Part shown: piece after piece, positions 7,617-60,171 of the stretch
Numbering within the stretch: the first letter of the stretch is position 1
Layout of the letters: each line of letters opens with the position of its first letter
Assembly (NCBI RefSeq): GCF_001610835.1
Contig: NZ_CP011270.1
Location: forward strand, 7,458,001-7,522,000
DNA length: 64,000 nucleotides
Direction of reading: 5' to 3'
DNA from: Planctomyces sp. SH-PL14
Lineage (GTDB): Bacteria > Planctomycetota > Planctomycetia > Planctomycetales > Planctomycetaceae
The notes under the pieces: model-generated
What the model saw: only the letters and a program-made list of their open reading frames with translations
The model's database searches: none
What the model was told of the DNA's origin: nothing
Made by a program: the position numbers and the translations under genes

Positions 7617-8687
7617 ATGCTTCGAGTTGCGCGCTCGATCGCCCTGCTTCTCGCCATTCCGGTGGCGACTGCTCAGGCGGCCAATGTCACGGTGAACTTT
7701 GCGGGGACGGTCCGGGCGATCATCGACGCCAACGACGCGGAGGCGCCGCCGATCGACTTTCAGCCCGCCCCGGTTGGAAGCTCGTTCTCCGGGACGATCA
7801 CGTACGACGACGGTTCCGCGGTGACGGATGGCGGGACGGGCTACGCCCGTTATCTGAACCTGCTTTCGTCGAGCGGCTCCCTGACGATCAACGGTCACAC
7901 GATCGTGACGAATGGGCCGGTGACCGCGACCACGGTCTCGGGAGAGAGCGGCTTCGGTTTCTCCGGGATCAACCTCGGCAACCAGCCGGTGACGCTGCCG
8001 GCCGGCTGGAACGTCTCGGCCAGCCCGCTCCCGTATTTCACGCTTCAGCTCTGGGACGTGCCGCCGAGAACCAGGCCGCTGACCCTCCCCTCGTCCCAGA
8101 ACGATTTTGCCACGGACCACCTGAACCTGGTCCTGGACTTCCAGCAGAGCGTGACCGTGGCCGGCCAGGCCTACGGAGGCCGCGTCTTCCTCGAGGGAAC
8201 GATTACCTCCCTCTCGGTCATCGGTCCCCCTCCCCCGCCGCGGGAGGTGGCGATCGACGTCATTCCGACGAGTCAGAACAACGAGATCAACCTCAAGGAC
8301 AAGAAGCCGAAGCCGCTCGACGTGGCGGTTTTCGGATCGGCCGACTTTGACGTCACGGCGGTCCTGCCCGAGACGATCATCCTCGGTGATCCGGAGCTGA
8401 CCGACCCGGAAACGGGTCTGGGGCAGAAGGTCGCTCCCAGTGACATCTTCGAGGTTGACGTTAACCGCGACGGACGTCTCGACCTGCTGATCCGCTTCGA
8501 CCTGCGGGACCTGAAAGACTTCGGCGCGATCGGTTCGTCAACGACGTCGCTGGAGTTCCAGGCCCTTCTCGACAATCAGGGGCTGGTCTTCGGCAGCGAC
8601 GACGTGTCGATCTCCGGCGGCAAGGGAAAGGGGCGGAAGTCCAAGCACCGCCCCAGCCGACATGACTTCCAGCTTCGCGGGCGGTGA
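7617..8687 (+). CDS. Secreted hypothetical protein
   Basis: This is a 356-residue protein with a signal peptide (MLRVARSIALLLAIPVATAQ, cleavage expected after the alanine-rich stretch). The first half resembles PEP-CTERM-type exported beta proteins (VTVNFAGTV, GSSFSGTITYDDG). The second half contains a block common to planctomycete and marine secreted proteins: REVAIDVIPTSQNNEINLKD, then KPLDVAVFGSADFDVT and DVNRDGRLDLLIRFDL, a possible calcium-binding aspartate loop. There is no PEP-CTERM anchor; the C-terminus is strongly basic (KGKGRKSKHRPSRHD). I assign no function. A GGGAGT Shine-Dalgarno sequence lies just before the ATG. Confidence 0.75.
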   Translation: MLRVARSIALLLAIPVATAQAANVTVNFAGTVRAIIDANDAEAPPIDFQPAPVGSSFSGTITYDDGSAVTDGGTGYARYLNLLSSSGSLTINGHTIVTNGPVTATTVSGESGFGFSGINLGNQPVTLPAGWNVSASPLPYFTLQLWDVPPRTRPLTLPSSQNDFATDHLNLVLDFQQSVTVAGQAYGGRVFLEGTITSLSVIGPPPPPREVAIDVIPTSQNNEINLKDKKPKPLDVAVFGSADFDVTAVLPETIILGDPELTDPETGLGQKVAPSDIFEVDVNRDGRLDLLIRFDLRDLKDFGAIGSSTTSLEFQALLDNQGLVFGSDDVSISGGKGKGRKSKHRPSRHDFQLRGR

Positions 8688-8711
8688 CCGAGGTCGCATC
8701 CGCTGTGGTTT

Positions 8712-8775
8712 GGACGGTTCCTCGAGTGAAAATGCCTCCGGCGGCAAGGGCTGGCCGCCCTTGACCCGCGGCTCC
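8712..8775 (+). repeat. Solo remnant of the dispersed repeat
   Basis: Only the 3' hairpin module of the large repeat is present: GGTTCCTC, then TGCCTCCGGCGGCAAGGG, a loop, and CCCTTGACCC. The stem is CAAGGGC/GCCCTTG-like. It is followed at 8776-8805 by an unrelated hairpin (GGTCGAT and CGCT paired with AGCG and ATCGACC). Both lie in the 124-bp gap between two convergent genes. They are well placed to act as a bidirectional terminator. Confidence 0.7.
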
Positions 8776-8811
8776 GGTCGATTCGCTCTCGTGAGCGGAT
8801 CGACCTATGGG

Positions 8812-10008
8812 CTACTTCTTCGGCACGATGGCCGCGGCGGCCACCGTGCAGACGCGGCCGATCAGCGGATTGACGATGCCGTCGCCCGTCGGGTGAAGGC
8901 GGCTGCTCAGGAAGATCACGAACAGCTCCTGCTCCGGGTCGATCCAGATCCCCGTCCCCGTAAAGCCCCCATGCCCATAGGCTGCGGGGCTCAGGAGATC
9001 GCCGCGGTTGGCCGAGTAGCCCGAGCGGTTGTCCCACCCCGCCATCCGGAAATTGGAACCGGGAACCGCCGTCGGACGCGTCATCTCCTTGAGCGCCGCC
9101 TCCGGCAGGATCGTCTTCCCGTTCCACGTCCCGCCGCTGAGAAGCATCTGGGCGAAGACCGCGAGATCGTCTCCCGTCGAGAACAGTCCGGCATGCCCCG
9201 CCACCCCGCCGAGAGCCTGCGCCCGCGGGTCATGGACGAGACCCGTCAGCCACGTTTCCCCCTTCTTCTCCGTCGGGCAGATCCGCGGCAGGAGCGATTT
9301 GTCGGGAAGGTAGCCGGTGTCGGGCATCCCGAGCGGCTCGTAGAGCTCGGCCCGGACGTAGTCGTTCAGCTTCCGCCCGCTCACCTCTTCGACGATCCGC
9401 CCCAGCACCAGAAAATTCACGTCGGAATACATGAACTTCTCGTCGAGACCGGCGACCGGCTTGAGGGCCAGGATCTTCTGCCACGCCGTCTCGGGACCGA
9501 GGGCGTAGTCGCCGATCGCGTTGTCCGGAATCAGCCCGCTCGTGTGGAGCAGCAGGTGCCGGACGGTGATCTTGTCCTTGCCGTTCTCGGCAAAGGCCGG
9601 AAGGTACTTCGTTACCGGCGCGTCGAGGTCGACCTTCCCTTCCGAGACGAGCTTGTGAACGCTCGTTGCCGTCGAGATGGGCTTCGTCAGCGACGCCAGG
9701 TCGAAGACCGTGTCGAGCGTCATCTCTTCGCGGGTCGGCTCGGCGCGGCGCAGGCCGTACGCCTTCCGATGAACGATCTTCCCCTTGTGGCCGACCACGA
9801 TGACGCAGCCGGGCATCTTCTTGTCCCGAATTCCCTCGGCGGCAATCCGGTCGATCGCCTCCAGCCGTGACGCCTGCATCCCGACATCCGCCGGAGCGGC
9901 CAGCGGCAGCTTCGGCTCGGCCGCTCGGGCCGTCTCCGCCATCCCGAGTAAACAGATTAACAGGGCCGCAGCAGCGGCCGACGGGCGGAGACGCAGGGCG
10001 CGGGACAT
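8812..10008 (-). CDS. Secreted serine hydrolase (class C beta-lactamase/esterase family)
   Basis: This 398-residue protein has a signal peptide (LRPSAAAAALLICLLGMAE, cut near ARA-AEP). The catalytic SxxK is SLTK within FDLASLTKPISTATS, the tyrosine motif is YSDVN, and the third motif is HGGFTG in place of KTG. These fit the beta-lactamase (PF00144) fold found in esterases, D-aminopeptidases and class C enzymes. The GHAGLFSTGDDLAVFAQML block is typical of the family's planctomycete members. The ATG at 10008 is chosen because it starts the signal peptide. The HGG variant and the family's breadth make an esterase or peptidase role more likely than antibiotic resistance. Confidence 0.9.
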   Translation of the reverse strand: MSRALRLRPSAAAAALLICLLGMAETARAAEPKLPLAAPADVGMQASRLEAIDRIAAEGIRDKKMPGCVIVVGHKGKIVHRKAYGLRRAEPTREEMTLDTVFDLASLTKPISTATSVHKLVSEGKVDLDAPVTKYLPAFAENGKDKITVRHLLLHTSGLIPDNAIGDYALGPETAWQKILALKPVAGLDEKFMYSDVNFLVLGRIVEEVSGRKLNDYVRAELYEPLGMPDTGYLPDKSLLPRICPTEKKGETWLTGLVHDPRAQALGGVAGHAGLFSTGDDLAVFAQMLLSGGTWNGKTILPEAALKEMTRPTAVPGSNFRMAGWDNRSGYSANRGDLLSPAAYGHGGFTGTGIWIDPEQELFVIFLSSRLHPTGDGIVNPLIGRVCTVAAAAIVPKK

Positions 10009-10064
10009 GGCAACTCGCAAGGAGGACCGTTTGAAAACGGACGACTGACCACGGAGCGCTGCGA

Positions 10065-11297
10065 TCAGTTCGTCGAGCAGCCGCCGCCGGTTCCGCACGA
10101 TCCGGTGGCCAGCACCGGCAGTCCGGGGAGGGGGCGCGGCCGGGGAGCGGCGTTCGTGGGCGGGTACTCGTCGATGTATTCGTAGTACACGTTCCGCTGC
10201 CGGGGGATGTAGCCGGCGTCGCTGATGCAGCGGCGGATCGTGTCGAGCGAGAGATGGAACACCGTCCCCGCCTGGGCGACGACGTTCTCTTCGATCATGA
10301 GGCTCCCCATGTCGTTCGCGCCGAACATGAGCGCCATCTGGCCAACCTTTTCGCCTTGGGTGACCCAGGACGACTGGATGTTGGGGATGTTGTCGAGGTA
10401 CAGCCGGGCGACCGCCTGCGTCTTGAGGTATTCGAAGGCGCCGACTTCCGGAATCTGCGACATGTCGACGCCCCCCTTGCGGCCTTCCTCGGCGTCCTTG
10501 CCGAACCAGGGGGCGTGGCCGGGAGCCTGGTGCGTCCAGCAGATGAACGCGGTGAAGCCCTTGGTCTTATCCTGGAGCTGCCGCAGCCGGTCGAGGTGCT
10601 CGATCCGTTCTTCCAGCGTCTCGACGTGGCCGAACATCATCGTGCAGGTGCTGCGGCCGCCGAGTTCGTGCCAGGCCTCATTGACTTCGAGCCAGCCGTC
10701 GGTCAGGACCTTGCCTCGCGTGATGAGCTTGCGAACGCGGTCGACCAGGATCTCGCCGCCGCCGCCCGGGAGGCTGCCGAGGCCGGCTGCCTTGAGCCGT
10801 TCGAGGACGGTCTTGAGCGGGAGTTTGCTGATCTTGTGGAAGTGGTAGAGCTCGGGGGGGCTGAAGCCGTGGATGTTGACCTGCGGGAATTTCTCCTTCA
10901 TGGAGCGGAGGAGGTCTTCGTACCACTCCAGCGGCAGTTTGGGGTGGAGTCCCCCCTGGAGGAGGATCTGGTCGCCGCCGAGGTCGACCGTTTCCTGGAT
11001 CTTTTCGAACAGGACTTCCTTGGTCAGGACGTAGGCTTCGGGGTGTTCGACCGGGCGGTAAAAGGCGCAGAAGTCGCAGACGGCGGCGCAGACGTTGGAG
11101 TAGTTGATGTTCCGGTCGATGTTGTAGGTCCGGAACGGCTCGGGGTGGAGTCGGCGGGTGACGGCGTCGGCCGCGGCGCCGATGGCGGTGAGGTCGTGCG
11201 ACTGGAGGAGTTGCACGCCTTCTTCTGGGGTGAGCCGTTGTCCGTCGATCGCCTTTTGGAGGATGTGTTCGATGACGGGTGGCGTGACGCTGATCAT
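10065..11297 (-). CDS. mqnC: Cyclic dehypoxanthinyl futalosine synthase (MqnC)
   Basis: This 410-residue radical SAM enzyme has its 4Fe-4S cysteines at 70, 74 and 77 (CAAVCDFC). The following blocks match MqnC and the related MqnE/CofH group: QILLQGGLHPKLPLEWYE, NIHGFSPPELYH, LGSLPGGGGEILVDRVR and TTCTMMFGHVE-like. MqnC cyclises dehypoxanthine futalosine in the futalosine route to menaquinone, in the cytoplasm. MqnC is preferred over MqnE because it ends with the MIEENVVAQAG and YIPRQRNVYYEYIDEY blocks. The C-terminus carries an extra cysteine-rich tail (GSCGTGGGCS). No other menaquinone gene is in the window, so the pathway genes are scattered. Confidence 0.9.
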   Translation of the reverse strand: MISVTPPVIEHILQKAIDGQRLTPEEGVQLLQSHDLTAIGAAADAVTRRLHPEPFRTYNIDRNINYSNVCAAVCDFCAFYRPVEHPEAYVLTKEVLFEKIQETVDLGGDQILLQGGLHPKLPLEWYEDLLRSMKEKFPQVNIHGFSPPELYHFHKISKLPLKTVLERLKAAGLGSLPGGGGEILVDRVRKLITRGKVLTDGWLEVNEAWHELGGRSTCTMMFGHVETLEERIEHLDRLRQLQDKTKGFTAFICWTHQAPGHAPWFGKDAEEGRKGGVDMSQIPEVGAFEYLKTQAVARLYLDNIPNIQSSWVTQGEKVGQMALMFGANDMGSLMIEENVVAQAGTVFHLSLDTIRRCISDAGYIPRQRNVYYEYIDEYPPTNAAPRPRPLPGLPVLATGSCGTGGGCSTN

Positions 11298-11384
11298 GAA
11301 GGGAATTCCGAGTGCTGCGGGACTGGCGGATTGTACAGGTTCGCTCTGAGGCTCCAACCGACATGACGTTCCGCTCTTAACACC

Positions 11385-11695
11385 GGGTCCAGGGGCACCC
11401 TGGTGGGGGGATGCAAGGGGGGCAACGCCCCTTTGCCCGCCGGAGGCCCTCTCGTCGAGAGATGTCGGAAGGAGTGAGTATCCAATCGCGGACGCCGTGT
11501 CGTATGACCCCTCACCAACCCGCGGGGGATTCCAAAGCGAGCATTGAGTCCTCAACGCCGGCTCCACAAAGGGGACGTCCGTTGCTTACCACGGTTCCCC
11601 ATCGAAAATGCCTCCGGCGGCAAGGGGGTGAGACCCCCTTGACCCCAGGCTGCCGTGGCACGTTGGGTTTGAGCGAGCACAGCCGCGCCGGCAAG
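11385..11695 (+). repeat. Dispersed structured repeat, copy 3 (full length)
   Basis: This is a complete copy in the divergent gap between mqnC and the RNase R gene. It is the CTCTCGTCGAGAG variant of the first third (a perfect small palindrome). It carries the short 10-bp form of the variable segment. Its 3' hairpin is GGGGGT-gag-ACCCCC, in which the closing C-G pair of other copies is replaced by T-A. It ends GAGCGAGCACAGCCGCGCCGG. Confidence 0.93.
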
Positions 11696-11743
11696 TAAAG
11701 ATAGGCACTTGTCTTTCCGCAGGTCAGGTGCGACCCTTCTGTA

Positions 11744-13963
11744 ATGAACATTCTTTCACAACGGATTCTGACCTACATCGAAGGGCCTTCTTATCACCCA
11801 TCGGACCTCAAGGGACTCGGCAAAAAGCTCGGACTCAAGCGGGACCGCCTCTCCGCCCTGCAGGAGGCCGTCGACGAACTCGTCGCGGGCGGAGCCGCCC
11901 GAGTCTCGACAACCGGACTCATTCTCGGCCGGTCCACCGCCGGACTTCTCCTCGGCAAAGTGAGCCGCACATCGGCGGGCGACGGTTATCTCACACCAGC
12001 CCCACCCGTCCCTCGCGGAATCACCGGCGACGTCTTCATCGACCGCGGAGACATGAAGGATGCCCAGGACGGCGACGAAGTCCTCGTCAAACTGACCGCC
12101 CGGCGGCGTGCGGGAGGACAACGGTCCGGAGAAATCGTCGAGGTCGTGACCCGCGAGACAACGGTCTTCGTCGGCACGTATTTCGAGGAAGACGGCGCGG
12201 GCTGGGTCCAGATCGACGGCCGGAATTTCCCGCACCCGATCTCGGTTGGCGATCCGGGGGCCAAGGGAGCCCAGCCGGAGGACAAAGTCGTCATCGAGAT
12301 GCTGCACTTCCCGACCGATCGCGAATACGGCGAGGCCGTCCTGACGAAGGTCCTGGGACCGCGAGGCGAGCCGGGCGTCGACACGCAGCTCGTGATTCAC
12401 GAGTTCGCCCTCCCGGTCGACTTCTCCGAACCGGCCCAGGAGGAAGCCCGCCGCCAGGCGGACGAGTTCGACGAGAACGACCTCTCCGACCGCGAGGACT
12501 GGACCGACGAGCTGATCCTGACGATCGACCCGATCGACGCCCGCGACTTCGACGACGCCATCTCGCTCCAGCGGGACGACAAGGGGCACTGGCACCTCGG
12601 GATCCACATCGCCGACGTCTCCCACTTCGTCGAGGAGAACAGTCCCCTCGACGACGACGCCCGCCAGCGGGGGACGAGCGTCTACCTGCCGGCCACTGTC
12701 ATCCCGATGCTGCCGGAAGTGATCTCCAACGGTCTCGCGAGCCTGCAGGAAGGACGGGTTCGGTACGCCATGTCGGCGCTGCTGGAGCTCGACGAGGAAG
12801 GGAACGTCCGCAAACGCCGCTTCGCCCGGACGGCGATCAAGGTCCGCAAGCGGTTTGCGTACGAGCAGGTGATGCCGGTCATCCAGCATCCCGACCGGCA
12901 CCCGGAGATCCCCCAGGAGATCCGGCGGCAGCTGTGCGACATGCACGCCCTGGCGATGAAGCTCCGCCGCAAGCGGTTCCGCAATGGGGCGATCAATCTG
13001 GAATTGCCCGAAGTGAAGCTCGACTTCGACCGCGACCTCCGGGTCACGGGAGCCCACGAGGCGTTCCACGACGAGAGCCACCAGCTCATCGAGGAGTTCA
13101 TGCTCGCCGCCAACGTGGCGGTGGCGACCGAGTTGTCGGACCGCGGGATCGAGTTCCCCCGCCGGATCCACGACGAGCCGAACCTTCCCAAGCTCAAAGC
13201 GTTTGCGGAGTTTGCCGACTCTCTCGGCTTCCCGCTTCGCAAGCCGCAAAGCCGGAAGGACCTCCAGGGGCTGCTCGCCCGCGTCAAAGGGACGCCGCAG
13301 GAGCGGGCGATCAACTTCGCGATGCTCCGCAGCCTCAAGCAGGCGGAGTATTCGCCGAAGGAGGTCGGGCATTACGCCCTGGCCGAGCCGGAATATTGCC
13401 ACTTCACGAGCCCCATCCGGCGGTATCCCGACCTGATCGTGCATCGGCTCCTCGGCCAGATCATCGATGGTCACAAGCGGCCGAAGGGGTTTCGCGGGGA
13501 AGCCCTGGTCCACATCTCGACGCACTGTTCCATGACGGAGCGGCGGGCGGCGGATGCCGAGCGGACCCTGAGCCGCGTGAAGCTGCTCCTGTACGTGCAG
13601 GACAAGATCGGGATGCGGCTGCCGGCGACGATCACCGGCGTCGACCGCTTCGGCTTCTTCTGTCGCGGAACGGAGCTCCCGGTCGAGGGGTTGGTCCACG
13701 TTTCCACTCTGCCCGGTCCCGAGTCGTATGAGTACGACAAGGTCGCTCAGCGGCTCGTCGGCCGGCAGACCGGACGGGCCTATCAGCTCGGCGACCGGGT
13801 CGAGGTTGAGATCGACCGCGTCGATGTCGACCGTCGAGAGCTCGACCTGCTGCTCGTCCAGCACGCCAAAGCCAAGGCCCCGCCCCGGCGGAGCAAGGGA
13901 GCTGGTGGCGGCGGAAGCAAGACGGAGTCACCCCGGCGCCGCGGCCGAAGCCGACCTCGGTGA
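11744..13963 (+). CDS. rnr: Ribonuclease R (3'-5' exoribonuclease)
   Basis: This 739-residue protein has an N-terminal winged-helix-like start (ILTYIEGPSYHPSDLKGLGK), two OB-like cold-shock domains up to about residue 250, and the RNB catalytic domain. In that domain DPIDARDFDDAIS near residue 264 supplies the metal-binding aspartates. YCHFTSPIRRYPDLIVHRLL is the second conserved RNB block, near residue 550. An S1 RNA-binding domain follows at about 620-705, then a basic tail (KAKAPPRRSKGAGG) as in RNase R. It degrades structured RNA from the 3' end and acts in RNA quality control and rRNA turnover. No clear ribosome binding site precedes the ATG. A dispersed repeat ends 48 bp upstream. Confidence 0.94.
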   Translation: MNILSQRILTYIEGPSYHPSDLKGLGKKLGLKRDRLSALQEAVDELVAGGAARVSTTGLILGRSTAGLLLGKVSRTSAGDGYLTPAPPVPRGITGDVFIDRGDMKDAQDGDEVLVKLTARRRAGGQRSGEIVEVVTRETTVFVGTYFEEDGAGWVQIDGRNFPHPISVGDPGAKGAQPEDKVVIEMLHFPTDREYGEAVLTKVLGPRGEPGVDTQLVIHEFALPVDFSEPAQEEARRQADEFDENDLSDREDWTDELILTIDPIDARDFDDAISLQRDDKGHWHLGIHIADVSHFVEENSPLDDDARQRGTSVYLPATVIPMLPEVISNGLASLQEGRVRYAMSALLELDEEGNVRKRRFARTAIKVRKRFAYEQVMPVIQHPDRHPEIPQEIRRQLCDMHALAMKLRRKRFRNGAINLELPEVKLDFDRDLRVTGAHEAFHDESHQLIEEFMLAANVAVATELSDRGIEFPRRIHDEPNLPKLKAFAEFADSLGFPLRKPQSRKDLQGLLARVKGTPQERAINFAMLRSLKQAEYSPKEVGHYALAEPEYCHFTSPIRRYPDLIVHRLLGQIIDGHKRPKGFRGEALVHISTHCSMTERRAADAERTLSRVKLLLYVQDKIGMRLPATITGVDRFGFFCRGTELPVEGLVHVSTLPGPESYEYDKVAQRLVGRQTGRAYQLGDRVEVEIDRVDVDRRELDLLLVQHAKAKAPPRRSKGAGGGGSKTESPRRRGRSRPR

Positions 13964-39372: not shown

Positions 39373-40734
39373 ATGAAACTGAGAGCGTGGGTTCCCGTCC
39401 TGGCGACGTTGCTCCTGGTCGCCGGGGGGACGCAAGCCGATGCCGGCTTGTTCTGCGGGATGGGACGGTACAAATGCTGTCCCCCACCTGCGTGCCAGGT
39501 TTGTGAAGACTACGGCAACGCCCGCGTCATGAGCGGGTCGTGCTACAAGACCGTCCGCGAAACGATCTACTGCACCGAGCAGTACACCGAGCAGCAGACT
39601 GTCTACACGACGTGCGTCGAGAAGATTCCGGTGCAGAAGACCCGCACGGTCTATGACACCTGCTATCGCGACGAGTGCTACAACGTCTGCCGGCCGGTCT
39701 ACAACACCTGCTACCGCGACGTCTGCTGCACCGTGAAGCGGCCCTGCTACAACACCTGCTACCGCACGGTGTGCTGCACGGTCCGCCGTCCGATCTACAA
39801 CACCTGCTACAAGAACGTCTGCTACACCGTCCGTCGCCCGTGCTACAACACGTGCTACCGCGACGTGTGCCACACGGTTCGCCGGCCGGTCTACAACACT
39901 TGCTACCGTACCGTCTGCTGTACCGCCTACCGCACCGAATCGCAGACCTGCTACCGCGACGTCTGCTACACCGTCTGCCGTCCGGTCACGGAAACGAAGT
40001 GCGTTCAGGAATGCTGCGGTGAATGGCAGATCGTCAAGGAATGCATCCCCGGGACGGTCGTTGCCGATCCGGGCTGTGCGGCTCCCTGCGACGTTGCCTA
40101 CGGCACCGCCGCCGATCACTGCTGCCCCGGCCCGGTCGCCTGCCCGCCGCGGATCGTCTGCAAGCGGGTCTGGGTTCCGAAGGTTGTGACCCGTCACATC
40201 ACCTGCACCCGGATGGTTCCGGAAGTCCGTCACTGCAAGGTTCCGTACACGACCTGCACGCGGATTCCCTACACGATCACGAAGCAGGTTCCCTACACGA
40301 CGTGCAGCTGGGTTTGCGAAACGAAGCACTGCCGGGTTCCTTACACGACCTGCCGCTACGTCTGCGAAACCCGCACGAAGCAGGTTCCTTACACGACCTG
40401 CAGCTGGACCTGCCAGACGATCACCAAGAAGATCCCCTACACGACCTGCACCTGGACCTGCCAGACGATCACCAAGAAGGTTCCTTACACGACCTGCAGC
40501 TACGTGAACGAGACCCGCACCCGCCGCGTCCCGTTCTGTGTGCCGCGGACGGTCTGCGAGACCTCTTACGTCTGCAAGACCCGCTGCGTCCCGCACACGG
40601 TCTGCGTCACGAAGACCCGTTGCGTGCCGAAGGTTGTCTGCCGTCAGGTTCCGGTCGATCCGTGCTGCCCGGTTGATCCCGGCTGTGCGGCTCCGATGAC
40701 CGCCTGCGACAATGCTGGGACCTGCACTCAGTGA
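39373..40734 (+). CDS. Cysteine-rich YTV-motif cell-surface protein
   Basis: This 453-residue protein has a signal peptide (MKLRAWVPVLATLLLVAG, cut near ADA) and a mature part built of two repeat types. The first (residues about 80-220) repeats PVYNTCYRDVC, TVRRPCYNTC and similar. The second (about 285-400) repeats KKVPYTTCSWTCQTI and relatives. Cysteine, tyrosine, threonine and valine dominate, as in the YTV-motif proteins of planctomycete cell walls, known from Rhodopirellula work. The dense, evenly spaced cysteines suggest a disulfide-linked wall layer. The repeats are near-identical at DNA level, so unequal recombination is likely. A strong terminator follows. Confidence 0.9.
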   Translation: MKLRAWVPVLATLLLVAGGTQADAGLFCGMGRYKCCPPPACQVCEDYGNARVMSGSCYKTVRETIYCTEQYTEQQTVYTTCVEKIPVQKTRTVYDTCYRDECYNVCRPVYNTCYRDVCCTVKRPCYNTCYRTVCCTVRRPIYNTCYKNVCYTVRRPCYNTCYRDVCHTVRRPVYNTCYRTVCCTAYRTESQTCYRDVCYTVCRPVTETKCVQECCGEWQIVKECIPGTVVADPGCAAPCDVAYGTAADHCCPGPVACPPRIVCKRVWVPKVVTRHITCTRMVPEVRHCKVPYTTCTRIPYTITKQVPYTTCSWVCETKHCRVPYTTCRYVCETRTKQVPYTTCSWTCQTITKKIPYTTCTWTCQTITKKVPYTTCSYVNETRTRRVPFCVPRTVCETSYVCKTRCVPHTVCVTKTRCVPKVVCRQVPVDPCCPVDPGCAAPMTACDNAGTCTQ

Positions 40735-53504: not shown

Positions 53505-54981
53505 CAGCCCTTTGAAGGTGGCTATCCCGTGTTGGATCGCCGCTGCTTGAGAAGCCTGTCGGTCGAGATGTGCTGAGCCCTCGCGGCTGGACGTTTGGTG
53601 CGTGTCTTTGGACCACGAATCGATTTGCGATATCGCATGACATCGACGCTCTGGGCCCAGACGTGGAGCTGCCGGCTGAGAGCTTCGGTGGGAAGAGTTC
53701 CATACTGTTCCCATTGATCCGCCGGAATCGCGATCATCATCCCGACGTAGGTGCGGCTGAGCTCATCCGACATCCGCCAGTGCGAGAACTGCTCGTCAAC
53801 GAACTCCTGGCCATGAGCAGAAGCCAGAGCGGCCTGCACGACCGCCAGGACGTTGTAGCACGCAACCGCCGTGCAGAAGCCGAAGAGGGCCGCAGGCGGA
53901 TAGCCAAGGGTGTTGAGTTCACACCTCAGGTGTGTCGTCAGTTCCTGGAAGGCTGTCTCGATCGTCCATCGCTCCCGATACAGCTCAGCGACCTGTGCTG
54001 CGGTGACCTCACTGGCGGGCAGGTTCGTCAGCAAGTGGAGCGTGGAGTCGTGATCCCGGGTTGGTTCGTCCAACTCGATGGTGATTCTGCGGACCGGCAG
54101 GACCTCACCGGTTGTGGGATCCGTCAGGCGGACAGGCTCTTCCGTCAGGCGGCCGGAATCGCCCCGGCCGAGCGATTTGGCTTTCCCGGTAACCTCCCAT
54201 CGCAGCCGGCCCCGATGCTGCCGGGTGATGAAGAACGCGGCGTGTCGGGCCAGACAGAACAGGAGTTCGCTCGTACAGAAGTTCCGATCGTCGATCACCA
54301 CATCCTTGGGGTCGATCCCCTCCAACAGAGGCAGGCAGAGACGACACTCCTGGGTGTAGGCATCCAGACCAGGAATCACGTCCAGGATCATCCGCAGCTG
54401 GGGATCGAGCAGGACGACACACTGGCCCGGCAAGGCTCCGCCTCCTTGAGTTCGCAGCGGCTTGAGCCGATGCTCTGTTCCCTCCAGGTGGTTGCCGTCG
54501 AGAATCTTGACCCGGTATCCGGGAAGGAGGGGAGCCGCCATCGCCGGCAGCGTCCGGATCAGCTCGGCCATCTCAGAGGCGGTCTGCCGCACCAGTTCTC
54601 GGGACGTGGCCGGTTCGATATGCCCCAGTTTGTCGTAGAGAGCCCGGATGGAGACGGGAATCTGGGCCTTCTTCTGCTGATAGGCCCGATGAACGGACGG
54701 CGTGACACGACAGACGACCAGGCTCATGAGATCGACGACGGTCGAGAACAGAAGCTCCCGTTCGTACTGTCGGACAGCCGTCCGTTGAAACAGGGCATCC
54801 AATCTCTGCGGGGCGAAGACTTTCTCCAGCGTCGCCCGGGCCATAACACAAAGCGGAGCCTGCTGAATGAAGCGGTCGAGGACCGATTGACCAACCATGG
54901 TCGCCTCCTCCCTGGAAATCCTGTGCATGTCTCGACATGACACCGGTTTACCATGAAGGAGGATGCACCTTCAAAGGGCTG
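53505..54981 (-). mobile_element. IS4-family insertion sequence (1477 bp)
   Basis: The ends are perfect 16-bp inverted repeats: CAGCCCTTTGAAGGTG at the left and CACCTTCAAAGGGCTG at the right. The flanks carry an exact 11-bp target-site duplication, GGTCAAGGGGG (53494-53504 and 54982-54992). A single transposase gene fills the interior. IS4-family elements duplicate 10 to 13 bp, in agreement. Because inverted repeats and duplication are intact, the insertion looks recent. The target is the GC-rich stem of a dispersed repeat. Confidence 0.95.
53522..54898 (-). CDS. IS4-family DDE transposase
   Basis: This is a 458-residue transposase. The first catalytic aspartate lies in KILDGNHLEGTEHRLK (about residue 131). 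The second lies in VVIDDRNFCTSELLFC (about 202), and the glutamate in YRERWTIETAFQEL (about 309), the IS4 Y-R-E signature. The ATG at 54898 has GGGAGGAGGCGACC just upstream; a longer frame to 54943 lacks a comparable site. No internal stop or frameshift is seen, so the enzyme is probably active. Confidence 0.93.
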   Translation of the reverse strand: MVGQSVLDRFIQQAPLCVMARATLEKVFAPQRLDALFQRTAVRQYERELLFSTVVDLMSLVVCRVTPSVHRAYQQKKAQIPVSIRALYDKLGHIEPATSRELVRQTASEMAELIRTLPAMAAPLLPGYRVKILDGNHLEGTEHRLKPLRTQGGGALPGQCVVLLDPQLRMILDVIPGLDAYTQECRLCLPLLEGIDPKDVVIDDRNFCTSELLFCLARHAAFFITRQHRGRLRWEVTGKAKSLGRGDSGRLTEEPVRLTDPTTGEVLPVRRITIELDEPTRDHDSTLHLLTNLPASEVTAAQVAELYRERWTIETAFQELTTHLRCELNTLGYPPAALFGFCTAVACYNVLAVVQAALASAHGQEFVDEQFSHWRMSDELSRTYVGMMIAIPADQWEQYGTLPTEALSRQLHVWAQSVDVMRYRKSIRGPKTRTKRPAARAQHISTDRLLKQRRSNTG

Positions 54982-55368
54982 GGTCAAGGGGGCCACGCCC
55001 CCTTGCCGCCGGAGGCACTCCTATGAGGAACCGTGGCAAGAAACGGGCGTCCGATTTGTGGAACCGGCGTTGAGAACTCGCCGCTCGCGTTGGAATCCCC
55101 GCGGGTTGGTGAGGGGGCATCCGGCACGTCGTCCGCGTCTGGATACGTGCTCCTTCAGACATCTCTCGACGAGAGGGCCTCCGGCGGGCAAAGGGGCGTT
55201 GCCCCTCTGCACTCCCCACCAGGGTGCCCCTGGACCCGGTTGATAGGGCGCAATCACCCGTGCAGCTCGACCTTATGAAATGGGATTGTTTCCACGACTT
55301 CGTTGCCGTAGATTCATCAAGGTTTATACGGTTGGACCGTGTGCAGACCGCCGCAGGGAGGCAGCAGA

Positions 55369-56643
55369 ATGAGTGCAGGAGCACTCCCCCCAACAAGCTC
55401 TGGGGCTCAGGCCGCGACAACGGTCCGAGGAAACCGGGGAACCCGCACAACCGCGGGAACACTTTCCGGAATTCATTCATCCGGATTCGCACTGGATCGC
55501 CCGCTCGACGGCGTTCCCGATCTCCCTCCGCGACTTCGCGACCTCCTCATCGACGCCCGCTTCCGCGCCGCGGAACGCGTCTTCGGCACCGCGATCTCCC
55601 ACGGCGCGGAACTGATCCTCCTCGCGGGCGACATCCTCTCCAGCGACAGCGGTCCGGGCTCCCGAGGCCCCTGGTTCCTGCGGGAGCAGTTCCGCCGTCT
55701 CGAGACGCACGGCATTCACGTCGTCTGGGCCGAGCCGACCGCCGGCCTCCATCGCTGGATCGAGACCCACGTCGGACTCCCCGGCAACGTCACGCTCCTC
55801 TCCGAGGAGGCGTCGGCCGACCTCGTCCTCTTCAATACGAACGTCCGGGTCCATTGCCGCACGTCCTCGTCCTCCCTGGCCGTTCCTAAGGGGGGAGCCG
55901 ACTGGAACCTGATCGTCGTTCCCGGTCTGGCGGTCGATCCCGGACTGATCCGCTGGGCCGACTATGTCGCCCTCGGCGGACCGATGCGGGACTCGCTCCA
56001 CGCCAACGTCTTCGCCGCCGGCGCACCGCAGGGATCCGGCTTTGAAGAGGCGGGGATCCACGGCTGCCTCGGATTCTCCCTCGCCGTCGGCCGTCCGCCT
56101 CAGACGGAGTTTATCGCCTCCGACGTCGTCCGCTGGGTCGAAGAGGAACACGCCGTCCTGCCGGGAACCACCGCCGATTGCCTCCGCAGCCAGCTGACGC
56201 ACCGCCTCGAAGAGTTTTCGTCGGCCCACTCCTGCGACGCCTGGATCGCCCGCTGGACGCTCGATCCCCAGTCGCCGGATACGCTGGCGCACTGTGCCGC
56301 GGATCGTCTGCGGAGCCTTCAGCAGGACCTCCAGCGCGTCGCCGCAGCAACCGAGATTCCGTTCTGGCCCGCCAGCCTCTCGGCCCGGTTCGATTCAACG
56401 GCGAGCCGGTTTCAGGCGTCTCTCCCCGAGACGCTGGCCACCATTCTGGACGGCTGCCGCGATTGGTCCGCTGAACAATCTTCGGTACACGACCTCGTCG
56501 CCCTGACCGCCGCCGACGGCATTTCCGTTCCGGACGCGCTGCGGTTCGTCACGCCGTCCCAGGTCCATCGTTCACTTCAGTCACGTCTCAGCGCCGAAGC
56601 GGTCCGCGTTCTTGCGGTTCACGGCTTCACGGCGCTTCGTTAG
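55369..56643 (+). CDS. SbcD/YhaO-like metallophosphoesterase
   Basis: This is a 424-residue protein. The segment LLIDARFRAAERVFGTAISH, then ELILLAGDILSSDSGPGSRG, matches the start of SbcD/Mre11/YhaO nucleases, where GDIL supplies the metal-binding aspartate. The usual opening D-x-H block is poor (HSSGFALDRPLDG), and a GNHE/GNHD motif is not evident, so activity is uncertain. A distinct N-terminal extension of about 45 residues is low complexity. The next gene, 51 bases on, is an SbcC-like ATPase, making the pair a probable SbcCD/YhaON-type complex acting on DNA ends. CAGGGAGGCAGCAGA precedes the ATG at 55369. Confidence 0.72.
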   Translation: MSAGALPPTSSGAQAATTVRGNRGTRTTAGTLSGIHSSGFALDRPLDGVPDLPPRLRDLLIDARFRAAERVFGTAISHGAELILLAGDILSSDSGPGSRGPWFLREQFRRLETHGIHVVWAEPTAGLHRWIETHVGLPGNVTLLSEEASADLVLFNTNVRVHCRTSSSSLAVPKGGADWNLIVVPGLAVDPGLIRWADYVALGGPMRDSLHANVFAAGAPQGSGFEEAGIHGCLGFSLAVGRPPQTEFIASDVVRWVEEEHAVLPGTTADCLRSQLTHRLEEFSSAHSCDAWIARWTLDPQSPDTLAHCAADRLRSLQQDLQRVAAATEIPFWPASLSARFDSTASRFQASLPETLATILDGCRDWSAEQSSVHDLVALTAADGISVPDALRFVTPSQVHRSLQSRLSAEAVRVLAVHGFTALR

Positions 56644-56694
56644 TGCGGTCGCACGTCACGTCGGGGCGTTCTGTCCCATGCCGGGGGGTCTCTC

Positions 56695-59600
56695 ATGAAA
56701 ATTCGTGATCTTCGCATCGAAGGGTTTGGCGTCCTGTCCGCCCTTCCATTGCACGACCTGAACGAAGGACTGACGGTCCTTCACGGTCCGAATGGATCAG
56801 GCAAGAGCACGCTGCTGCAGTTCATCCGCGGCCTGTTCCTCGGCTACTCCGAGGCCCGCCGCCTCCGCCTCCTGCCGCCGCTTCGCGGTGGAACCCCCGG
56901 CGGCTCGATGGTCCTCACCGATCCGGTCCGCTTCACGCTCACCCGGCACGCCCGCAACGATCTTTCCGACACGCTCGCGATCAACGTCAGCCACGGCTCG
57001 CCGGAGGATGCCCGCCGGCTGCGGGGAACGATCGAGGGACTGCGGCCGGACCTGTTCCGGACGCTCTACGCTGTCGGCAGCCTGGAAGCCCACAGCCTGG
57101 GACAACTCGTCGACATTGCGGACCGGGACGGCATCGACCTGCGGACCCGCCGCTCGGATGCCACCTGGCTGCGGAGCCAGATGGAGACTCTTCAGGGGGA
57201 ACAGTCGGGCCTCCTCTCCCCTTCCCCGCAACAGGGCCGGATCCAGGAGCTCGAGACGGAACGGGACCGGCTCCGCGCCCGGATCGACGTCTGTCGGGGC
57301 GAACAGCAGACCCGCCACGAGGACCACTCCGCCACGCTGCGCCGCCTCCAGGAGCAAGGGGCCCGCCTGCAGCGCGAGATCGACTGGCTCGACCAGCAGC
57401 TCCAGACGGTCCAGTGCGATCTCAATGCCTGCCACGACCGCCTGTGGGGCCGCACCTCCCGCACGATTCGGACGGTCCGCCGTGTCGAGGTCGAGCAGCC
57501 CGTCGCCGCGCCGCTCGTCACGACGGCGCTCCCGGAGATCGAAGAACTGGACCGGCAGATCGAACATTGCCGGCAGGTCCTCCGCGACCTCGCGTCGTCC
57601 CGGCGGAAGCTGACGGTCGAGTCCGCCAGCCTCGCCGGAGCCGAGACCCCGGATGATCCGACGACATTCGCTCGGGACCGCGCTGCCCTGCGGCTGCTGG
57701 AAGGGAATCTCCACAGGCTGGACGGGCTCGTCGAGCAGGTTCTCGACGCTCAGAAGATCGGCCGCTGCCTGTGCGACGCCACGCAGGCGGCGCTCGCCGG
57801 CAGTTCGGACAGCATGCGGGAGCAGGTTTACCTCCTGTGCCAGTCGCTCAATCGGCGAGAGAAGGAGTCGCAGCGGCGGATGCTCCTCGCGCAGCGCGAC
57901 GGTGTCGACCGGATGGAGCTCGATCTGGAAGCCCGGATCCGCGACCTGCGGTCCCGCCGCGACGCGATCCTCACCGCGCAGGCGGACACCGATCGGGAGC
58001 GGATCCGCTATCGCAGCGACCTCGAACGCGTCGGCTGCGAGTGCGATGCCCATGGCCGCTGGGAGGCGTTGGCCGCCGCGCCGGTTCCCACGGCTGTCGA
58101 GCGGTCGATCGTCGAGATCCCCGAAGAGCAGATCGTTGAAGACTCGACGGCCCGTCCCGGCGATGCCGCACTGGCTCGCGAACTCGCCGACCTCAAAGAC
58201 CAGCTCTGGCTCCAGCTCCAGGGAGTCCGGGGGCGGCAGGCGGCGCTGATTCGGGATCTCGCTCGAATCGAAGGCCGCGGCGGCGAGTTCGCCGACGACC
58301 GCGCGCTGCAGAGCATGCAGTACGAATACTCGGTCCTTGAGCAGAAGCTGGCGGACTCCCGCTCGCAGTGGCAGTCGCTGGCCCTCCTCCAGGCGACCCT
58401 CAACCTCGCGCGGCGGAAGCTGGAGAACGAAATCCAGCCGCCGGTCATTGCCGACGCCTCCGCCACGTTCCGCCGTCTGACCGAGGAGCGCTACAGCGGC
58501 TTCCGGTACGCACCCGAGACCCGCGAGCTCTACGCCGTCCTGTCGAGCGGCCAGCAGCACGGGCTTTCCTCGCTCAGCCGGGGGACGCTCGATCAGGCTG
58601 CGCTGTCGCTGCGGCTCGCCCTCGCCGACGAGTACGCCCGCCGGGGGCTGCGGTTGCCGTTCATTTTCGACGATGTCCTTGTCGACACGGACGAAGGACG
58701 GCTCCGCATCGCCGTGACCGTCCTCAAGGAGGCGGCCGCCCGCGGGCATCAGATCCTCTTCCTCACCTGCCAGGACCACCTCGCGGGGCTGTTCCACGAG
58801 ATGGGGATTGCCGTCCGCGGTCTGCATCGGGAGTGGCAGCCGGTTGTCCGCGGCACCGCCGCGGAACCCCGTCCTGTCCGCGCAGCGGAGGTTCCGGCCT
58901 CCATCGAGCGAAGATTGACCGCGCCCGTCATGCTCGCACCGAGTGCGATCCCGGCCGCCGCTTCGGCTCCCGAGGCCGTCTCGGCCATGGACGAGATCGA
59001 TGAGCCGGGCGACACCATCTCTCTCCGGAGTCAGCCCGACAGCCCGTTCTGGCTCCAGGTCGATTCCCCCGTCAGCTTGATTCCGTCTCTCGGCGCCCAG
59101 ATGGGCCGCCGGCTCGGCGCGATTGGCATCGCCACCGTGGCCGATCTGATCGACGTCGATCCCGAGTCGGTCGACATGCCTCTCAGCAGCCTCCAGGTTT
59201 CGGCGGCGCAGCTTCGCACGTGGCAGGCGGAAGGCCGCCTTCTCTGCTGCGTCCCGGGACTGACGGGGCGTGATGTCCAGCTGATCGTCGCCTGCGGTAT
59301 CGTCAACCCCGCCGAGCTCGCCGAGATCGACGCGGACGTTCTTCTGGCGCGGGCCCTCCGGCTGCAGGATGGGATGTCGCCTGGCTCGTTTGAATGGCTG
59401 GCGCCCGGACAGACGTTCCCGTCGCGGGAATCGGCCCGTCAGTGGATTGGCGCTGCCCATCGCTCCCGCACTCTGGCTGACGCCCTCGATGCCGCCGGAT
59501 GGGGAGAGGATGACGACGGCTCGGACGGCGAAGGGGACGGGGGAAACGGCTTTGGCGGTGATGATCCCGGTCCCTTCGGGGATGACTCCGGGCGCGGTCC

Positions 59601-60171
59601 ACGGACGTTGCGGCGGGCTCGCCGGACGCGCGCCGGACGAAAGAACCGTGTCACCCTGAGGAACTCCGCTTCGCGGATGCGGCTTCGTGCCGAGTCGCCC
59701 GGCGAAGCGGGGGGCAAGGCGGAGCCCTCGGAATGGCGGTACTTCCTGCAGACCGACAGTCCCGTCGTCGACGCGCCTTCGATTGGTCCCAAGATGGCGG
59801 AGCGGCTGAAGGAACTTGGGATTCTGACGGTGTCGGACCTGATCGGGCGTCGGGCGGAGTCGATTTCGGCGGGACTCACGGAGGCCAAGGTGACCGCGCG
59901 GCAGGCTCAGGACTGGCAGCGGCAGGCGGTGCTGATGTGCCGGGTCCCCGAGCTGCGGGGGCACGATGTGCAGATCCTGGTCGCGTGCGGCGTCGATACG
60001 GCGGAGCAACTGGCGGGGATCGCTCCTGCGACGTTGTGGAAGCAGGTCGAGGCCTTCCTGGAGACTCGTGACGCCGCGCGAGTGCTGCGTTCGTCGACGC
60101 CGCCGGATCTGGACGAGGTGACAGACTGGATCCGTTTCGCGGGGCATTCACGGGCATTGCGGGCTGCGTGA
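56695..60171 (+). CDS. SbcC/YhaN-like SMC-type ATPase fused to two DUF4332 domains
   Basis: This is a 1158-residue protein. The head has Walker A (GPNGSGKST, residues 31-39) and, far downstream, the ABC signature-like SSLSRGTLDQAALSLRLALA (about 625-645) and Walker B (LPFIFDDVLVDTD, about 654-666). The part between is coiled coil (LERERDRL-type heptads such as ELETERDRLRARIDVCRGEQ). After the head come two domains of the same type: FWLQVDSPVSLIPSLGAQMG (about 785-890) and YFLQTDSPVVDAPSIGPKMA (about 1015-1130). These are DUF4332 helix-hairpin-helix-like modules, joined by a D/G-rich acidic linker (about 935-985) followed by an R-rich patch. DUF4332 is predicted to bind nucleic acid. A role in DNA-end processing with the upstream phosphoesterase is inferred. 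Confidence 0.85.
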   Translation: MKIRDLRIEGFGVLSALPLHDLNEGLTVLHGPNGSGKSTLLQFIRGLFLGYSEARRLRLLPPLRGGTPGGSMVLTDPVRFTLTRHARNDLSDTLAINVSHGSPEDARRLRGTIEGLRPDLFRTLYAVGSLEAHSLGQLVDIADRDGIDLRTRRSDATWLRSQMETLQGEQSGLLSPSPQQGRIQELETERDRLRARIDVCRGEQQTRHEDHSATLRRLQEQGARLQREIDWLDQQLQTVQCDLNACHDRLWGRTSRTIRTVRRVEVEQPVAAPLVTTALPEIEELDRQIEHCRQVLRDLASSRRKLTVESASLAGAETPDDPTTFARDRAALRLLEGNLHRLDGLVEQVLDAQKIGRCLCDATQAALAGSSDSMREQVYLLCQSLNRREKESQRRMLLAQRDGVDRMELDLEARIRDLRSRRDAILTAQADTDRERIRYRSDLERVGCECDAHGRWEALAAAPVPTAVERSIVEIPEEQIVEDSTARPGDAALARELADLKDQLWLQLQGVRGRQAALIRDLARIEGRGGEFADDRALQSMQYEYSVLEQKLADSRSQWQSLALLQATLNLARRKLENEIQPPVIADASATFRRLTEERYSGFRYAPETRELYAVLSSGQQHGLSSLSRGTLDQAALSLRLALADEYARRGLRLPFIFDDVLVDTDEGRLRIAVTVLKEAAARGHQILFLTCQDHLAGLFHEMGIAVRGLHREWQPVVRGTAAEPRPVRAAEVPASIERRLTAPVMLAPSAIPAAASAPEAVSAMDEIDEPGDTISLRSQPDSPFWLQVDSPVSLIPSLGAQMGRRLGAIGIATVADLIDVDPESVDMPLSSLQVSAAQLRTWQAEGRLLCCVPGLTGRDVQLIVACGIVNPAELAEIDADVLLARALRLQDGMSPGSFEWLAPGQTFPSRESARQWIGAAHRSRTLADALDAAGWGEDDDGSDGEGDGGNGFGGDDPGPFGDDSGRGPRTLRRARRTRAGRKNRVTLRNSASRMRLRAESPGEAGGKAEPSEWRYFLQTDSPVVDAPSIGPKMAERLKELGILTVSDLIGRRAESISAGLTEAKVTARQAQDWQRQAVLMCRVPELRGHDVQILVACGVDTAEQLAGIAPATLWKQVEAFLETRDAARVLRSSTPPDLDEVTDWIRFAGHSRALRAA

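Follow-up and report, generated by a model that had tools for sequence, protein, structure and literature searches.

Complexes of the Mre11-Rad50 type both cut and tether DNA, and the two roles are hard to separate. The nuclease subunit, Mre11 or SbcD, is marked by the metal-binding motifs DxH, GD, GNHD, H, and GHxH. The closest described systems also include YhaO/YhaN (COG0420 and COG4717). Here we analyzed a gene pair of this kind in a 64,000-nucleotide stretch of Planctomyces sp. SH-PL14 (NZ_CP011270.1, positions 7,458,001 to 7,522,000), hereafter the window, whose numbering is used throughout. The first gene (55369-56643, forward strand) encodes a predicted pseudo-SbcD/YhaO, that is, a protein of Mre11 fold without the metal site, and the second (56695-60171, forward strand) encodes a Rad50/YhaN-type ATPase of 1158 residues carrying two C-terminal DUF4332 domains.

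The predicted fold of the partner, the loss of its metal ligands, the intact ATPase motifs, and a tail of the helix-hairpin-helix (HhH) type are each supported by sequence comparison and structural modeling. Our preferred reading, at a probability of roughly 0.55, is that this YhaO/YhaN-derived, Mre11-Rad50-like pair clamps or bridges DNA under the control of ATP without cutting it, and that the ATPase adds a DNA-binding tail of its own. A preliminary description of the pair, made from the DNA sequence alone, had interpreted it as a complex for DNA-end processing or structure recognition. Its proposals of an SbcD fold, a Rad50-type head, and an HhH-type tail have held up, and the search that it suggested for the same fusion in other planctomycetes was successful; end processing and a setting in defense islands are unsupported.

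The phosphoesterase partner lacks the metal site

No Pfam, NCBIfam, or PADLOC model matched the product of the first gene at E ≤ 1. A structural model built with ten relatives (mean predicted local distance difference test score, pLDDT, 71.9; predicted template modeling score, pTM, 0.67) gave 21 PDB matches at E ≤ 0.001, every one an Mre11 or SbcD chain, the best being 6x1y_A (E 3.1e-8, query TM-score 0.45). A profile of the pseudo-SbcD proteins that included no active member likewise found 13 PDB sequences at E ≤ 1, again all Mre11 or SbcD, with a best E of 0.0014. The assignment of this protein to the SbcD group is thus borne out at the level of the predicted fold.

The metal ligands were read against L063, an active homologue encoded in the same genome. 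Only one of the eight is kept in the window protein, the Asp of motif II (55630-55632); at the former motif I (55483-55491), Gly-Phe-Ala stands in place of the Asp-x-His of active relatives. Across 28 partners of tailed ATPases, which include three from the genus g58 and six assigned by hand (L211, L210, L202, L130, L151, and L144), zero to two of the eight ligands are kept, compared with all eight in 12 active homologues; the latter were chosen by three of the ligands, so that the other five serve as an independent check. The alignment at the lost positions is uncertain, and single retained ligands in diverged rows should therefore not be leaned upon. The motifs had been described as weak, which understates the loss, since they are missing save for the motif II Asp. 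By fold prediction and ligand comparison, then, the protein has the SbcD fold yet lacks the site that defines the nuclease, and is a predicted pseudo-nuclease.

The motif II Asp that the window protein retains could be taken as a sign of nuclease activity surviving in an atypical site. Among the 28 partners, however, the eight ligand positions are filled differently from one protein to the next, with no shared set of replacements, and we regard a surviving nuclease as very improbable. Because the metal site is nearly gone, nucleolytic end processing by the pair is unsupported. Nor need the focal pair supply a nuclease, since the separate L063 pair of the same genome has a complete metal site.

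The ATPase has intact motifs and a predicted Rad50-type head

Pfam models AAA_27 (PF13514) and AAA_23 matched the second protein above their cut-offs, and SMC_N below its cut-off. Motif searches and alignment located a Walker A motif (GPNGSGKS at residue 31; 56785-56808), an ABC signature (SRGT, 58576-58587, within LSRGT at residue 627), and a Walker B motif (PFIFDDV, 58657-58677, with IFDDV at residue 657), so that all three elements claimed for this protein are present. The model of the ATPase (mean pLDDT 77.4, pTM 0.39) shows long helices in addition to the head. When residues 1-721 of the model were used in a structure search, the list of matches was taken up by the head, and the match to 3qf7_A (Z 26.4, rmsd 3.1 Å over 274 residues) identified the predicted head as Rad50-type, in agreement with the SMC-type ATPase proposed earlier.

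No CxxC zinc hook was found before the tail of the window ATPase. In its stead, the middle part holds a CxC between helical stretches (57766-57774) and a CxCxxH (58036-58053), which is a putative altered hook. The first Cys of the latter is invariant in an alignment of seven rows, and one relative (L071) carries CPTC.

The DUF4332 tail resembles helix-hairpin-helix domains

DUF4332 (PF14229) matched the C-terminal region twice, and both domains proposed in the preliminary description score above the cut-off of 23.2 bits. The first and less conserved copy spans 59086-59460 (45.7 bits), and the second, strongly conserved copy 59776-60141 (77.5 bits). Between them lies a disordered linker (59506-59727; residues 938-1011, pLDDT below 50) that contains, as had been noted, an acidic Gly/Asp stretch followed by an arginine-rich patch. 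The ATPase model predicts both domains with confidence and as mostly helical. Several columns of the last copy are conserved at 0.97-1.00, and 77 of the 93 two-copy proteins have a linker of net positive charge. No further gene of the genome matches DUF4332. One open-license paper mentions the family, in the legend to a figure of a heliorhodopsin operon (PMC9769723).

An HhH character of the tail is supported by two lines of sequence evidence. All 11 proteins in the tail alignment matched the HHH_5 model at E ≤ 0.01; the model scored 30.5 bits on the whole ATPase (cut-off 27) and 23.5 bits, below the cut-off, on the last copy alone. The tail profile matched 50 PDB sequences at E ≤ 1, namely 44 Y-family polymerases, three BRR2, two XPF, and one RAD51L3, and the matched stretches of these proteins are helix-hairpin-helix elements. 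By analogy at the level of the family, the tail may bind DNA.

A conserved Ala-Ala terminus

The ATPase ends in Ala-Ala (60163-60168). The same ending was found in 88 of the 92 fusions whose C-terminus is complete (93 less L172, which runs off its contig), the other four ending KAG, AAS, KVA, and QVA. The last two columns are Ala at 0.96 and 0.97 in the last DUF4332 copy, and the aligned place in the internal copy shows Glu at 0.17 and Ala at 0.34. Proteins with a stand-alone DUF4332 also tend to end this way (17 of 22, after setting aside from 29 the tail of a split fusion, L006, and six DUF4332 proteins with lengths of 134-261 residues), compared with 25 of 948 background open reading frames (ORFs) of at least 300 residues, not all of which are genes.

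A terminal Ala-Ala is the core of the ClpX C-motif 1, and the transfer-messenger RNA (tmRNA, ssrA) tag of this genome, ANKQFALAA, ends likewise. The tail might thus be a handle for protein-protein contact or proteolysis, with the terminus read by ClpXP-like proteases so as to set the amount of the protein or deliver it to a partner. The frequency of the ending in fusions and stand-alone proteins, and its restriction to the true C-terminus, are in keeping with such a handle. However, the preceding residue is mostly Arg, Lys, Gln, or Glu, not Leu as in ssrA, the six DUF4332 proteins of 134-261 residues end EY, EH, QY, or KY, and the similarity to helix-hairpin-helix domains points to nucleic acid. 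We therefore consider a handle of this kind unlikely as the main explanation of the tail.

Distribution of the fusion and retention of its enzymatic parts

A search for the fusion in other planctomycetes had been suggested, and 104 ATPase-DUF4332 ORFs, of which 94 are distinct, were collected from this group. The 80 named loci with relatives carry planctomycete titles, bar one titled "bacterium." These loci were found with patterns inside the last DUF4332, so that the search did not select for head motifs, for a partner gene, or for the Ala-Ala end; loci without a tail were invisible to such a search, which biases tail retention, and a statement that the tail is always kept is therefore unsupported. 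In the organism's own family, 170 genomes were covered and 109 of them encode DUF4332. A sample of 294 genomes from the phylum gave 20 with the tail type at E ≤ 1e-10. Eighteen of these belong to the same family or class, and two, in other families, have short frames of 146 and 160 residues. The idea that fusion and stand-alone DUF4332 are mutually exclusive was rejected, as at least about a dozen of the 170 genomes hold both, judging by frame lengths. One relative (L067) encodes the head (8529-10823) and the tail (10804-11988) of the fusion as separate ORFs that overlap. No account of an ATPase-DUF4332 fusion was found in the open-license literature, among the matches listed by titles and abstract openings; a description elsewhere is possible.

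The upstream gene could be assessed for 80 of the 94 fusions, 14 being set aside for a cut 5′ end or less than 1.2 kb of upstream sequence. A pseudo-SbcD gene lies directly upstream in 27 and not in the remaining 53. Its presence goes with the state of the ATPase. Fusions with an adjacent partner have all three motifs intact in 24 of 27 cases, those without one in 4 of 53, and the difference persists when the three g58 loci are removed (21 of 24 versus 4 of 53). Counted singly, the signature is intact in 24/27 versus 5/53, Walker A in 27/27 versus 23/53, and Walker B in 26/27 versus 27/53. The exceptions are three fusions with a partner that lack the signature, one of which also misses the Walker B Asp, and four motif-intact fusions without a partner (L066, L068, L121, and L205). 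When the pseudo-SbcD profile was run against 265 ORFs of at least 300 residues within 4 kb of the 53 partner-less loci, none matched (best E 0.43). Six upstream ORFs at such loci comprised one glycosyltransferase, two GGDEF proteins, one AIR carboxylase, and two that matched nothing.

Since many relatives have no adjacent SbcD gene and degraded ATPase motifs yet are left with a tail of DNA-binding type, these data suggest that tethering or an architectural role is the core task. Going further, an Mre11-Rad50-type machine may have been stripped stepwise within one bacterial class, leaving a DNA-tethering coiled coil with two HhH domains whose amount is set by an Ala-Ala C-degron. The nuclease site would have gone first, and the nuclease subunit and the ATPase motifs would have been lost jointly afterwards. 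We offer this history tentatively, as possible but short of probable.

The loss of enzyme motifs in many relatives, together with the split gene of L067, could also mark a decaying, functionless relic. Against this, long open frames are maintained in 94 distinct ORFs, and the last DUF4332 is strongly conserved, though the search favored conserved tails. There appears to be little chance that the family is merely decaying.

Paralogous pairs and other DUF4332 proteins

The genome encodes three phosphoesterase-ATPase pairs, these being L063, L064, and the focal pair. The L063 ATPase has no hydrophobic stretch, and similar pairs occur at L225-L228. The L064 pair (G000:C1:1264000-1280000) combines a degenerate phosphoesterase with an ATPase whose coiled coil contains a hydrophobic stretch, and relatives carry similar pairs (L212-L224 and L229-L231). 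Zero to four of the eight ligands are kept in 24 other phosphoesterases, for not all of which the membrane-hairpin type is confirmed. By pattern, most membrane-hairpin ATPases have their motifs present. In a tree of 94 ATPase heads, one starred set comprises the focal protein and 17 other fusions, 18 rows in all.

The genus g58 (L209, L197, and L198) carries one or two DUF4332 domains on an ATPase of the membrane-hairpin type, which is possibly an intermediate. These proteins nest among the membrane-hairpin ATPases (17-row set, support 100/99). Because the g58 tails sit on that type, ATPase and DUF4332 occur joined in two different branches. In a DUF4332 tree of few columns, two of the g58 first copies group with first copies of the focal type, though not with strong support (96/75), and both a tail gained anew and a tail taken from the focal type would be compatible with the trees. 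A role of the tail as substitute for the membrane hairpin was rejected, as g58 has both DUF4332 and a hydrophobic hairpin.

Five stand-alone proteins (L075, L076, L077, L079, and L080) combine a Zn-dependent phospholipase C-type domain (PF00882) with one C-terminal DUF4332. The PF00882 score reaches or passes the cut-off in four of the five and is below it in L080. PF00882 represents the phospholipase C/P1-nuclease superfamily.

Genomic setting

An ORF check found both genes of the pair in place in the single 8.44-Mb contig of the genome, which together with the ATPase motifs and the two DUF4332 domains confirms the gene pair as first reported at 55369-60171. The first gene starts with ATG preceded by GGGAGG, and an in-frame GTG is found at 55339. 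The pair is located downstream of an IS4-type transposase gene (53522-54943, reverse strand; PF01609, with NF033592 at 112.2 bits, just below its cut-off of 115) and has repeat copies on both flanks.

These copies belong to a dispersed repeat of about 250-330 nucleotides, present 11 times in the window on both strands (at 0.2-0.5, 11.4-11.7, 17.4-17.7, 19.7-20.0, 26.5-26.8, 30.0-30.2, 36.0-36.3, 40.8-41.1, 49.5-49.8, 54.95-55.24, and 60.2-60.5 kb). In the whole genome it was found at 40 places at 87-100% identity and at two short ones, with 40 of 1143 first-look candidates scored; provided that the density holds, it would exceed a thousand copies. Rfam gave no match at gathering scores in the window, the repeat included. 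The copies at 54.95-55.24 and 60.2-60.5 kb could have marked the pair as a mobile unit between direct repeats, a reading that was rejected because the repeat is dispersed throughout the genome. A tandem repeat with 48-nucleotide spacing was also observed at 39595-39987 and 40237-40514.

A search for the fusion in defense-island contexts had been suggested, and several PADLOC models, including LmuB (E 2e-10), mad3 (E 7e-10), and AriA, do match the ATPase. An SMC-like anti-phage or anti-plasmid system related to Lamassu, Gabija, or PARIS would account for such matches. The best LmuB stretch, however, covers only residues 20-53 around Walker A, and the pseudo-SbcD, as noted, has no PADLOC match. 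At the 27 loci with a partner gene, no neighbor other than the pseudo-SbcD recurs in more than five, so that a defense-island context is unsupported. A pattern scan of viral contigs matched 600 stretches, none of which encodes a relative, and plasmids yielded no ATPase-DUF4332 fusion; the partial plasmid matches cover 11-16% of the query, and nine of ten are annotated as "YhaN family protein." We consider a defense function improbable.

A proposed DNA clamp

As a non-nucleolytic clamp, the pseudo-SbcD and the ATPase would form a complex, in which ATP binding would close the ATPase heads on DNA. The pseudo-SbcD may provide the scaffold of the dimer and guide the DNA, which the tail would also grip independently. 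The complex would then recognize, bridge, or protect DNA instead of cutting it.

Several observations weigh against this proposal. The structure matches of the pseudo-SbcD model reach query TM-scores of just 0.33-0.45. The tail has weak PDB matches (best E 0.0018) that are limited to its first hairpin, and the hairpin Gly, at 1.00 in the last copy, is not conserved in the first, where Asp is commonest at 0.31. The linker of the window protein itself has a net charge of 0, and protein, too, can be a ligand of helix-hairpin-helix domains. The counts relating partner and motifs come from related sequences, and their Fisher p of 3e-13 ignores phylogeny. Furthermore, "without partner" here means that none is adjacent, and an unlinked partner may be encoded elsewhere in those genomes.

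These planctomycetes offer a natural lineage without the cutting site but with the ATPase motifs, alongside others whose ATPase motifs have degenerated as well and whose tail is left. The tethering role could be studied separately in such lineages, and DUF4332 would gain its first testable role. More speculatively, the pair may bear on the compact nucleoid organization of planctomycetes.

Comparison with known systems

The focal pair shares with YhaO/YhaN the order of phosphoesterase gene followed by ATPase gene and the AAA_27 head, and differs in the missing metal site of the phosphoesterase and in the DUF4332 tail of the ATPase. With SbcD-SbcC and Mre11-Rad50 it has in common the predicted Mre11 fold, the Rad50-type head, and the long helices, whereas it has no nuclease site, has CxC and CxCxxH in place of CxxC, and carries an HhH-type tail. 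Lamassu LmuB is likewise an SMC-like ATPase, to which the focal ATPase shows its short PADLOC match, but the focal type has no recurrent neighbor that could be LmuA or LmuC.

Two comparisons are with planctomycete proteins. The membrane-hairpin paralogue pairs, such as L064, resemble the focal pair in a phosphoesterase with few ligands and in ATPase motifs that are mostly present; unlike the focal pair, they have hydrophobic stretches in the coiled coil and, save for g58, no tail. The proteins joining PF00882 to DUF4332 have a C-terminal domain of the same type, mostly ending in Ala-Ala, but in the five that were scanned the N-terminus is PF00882 rather than an ATPase.

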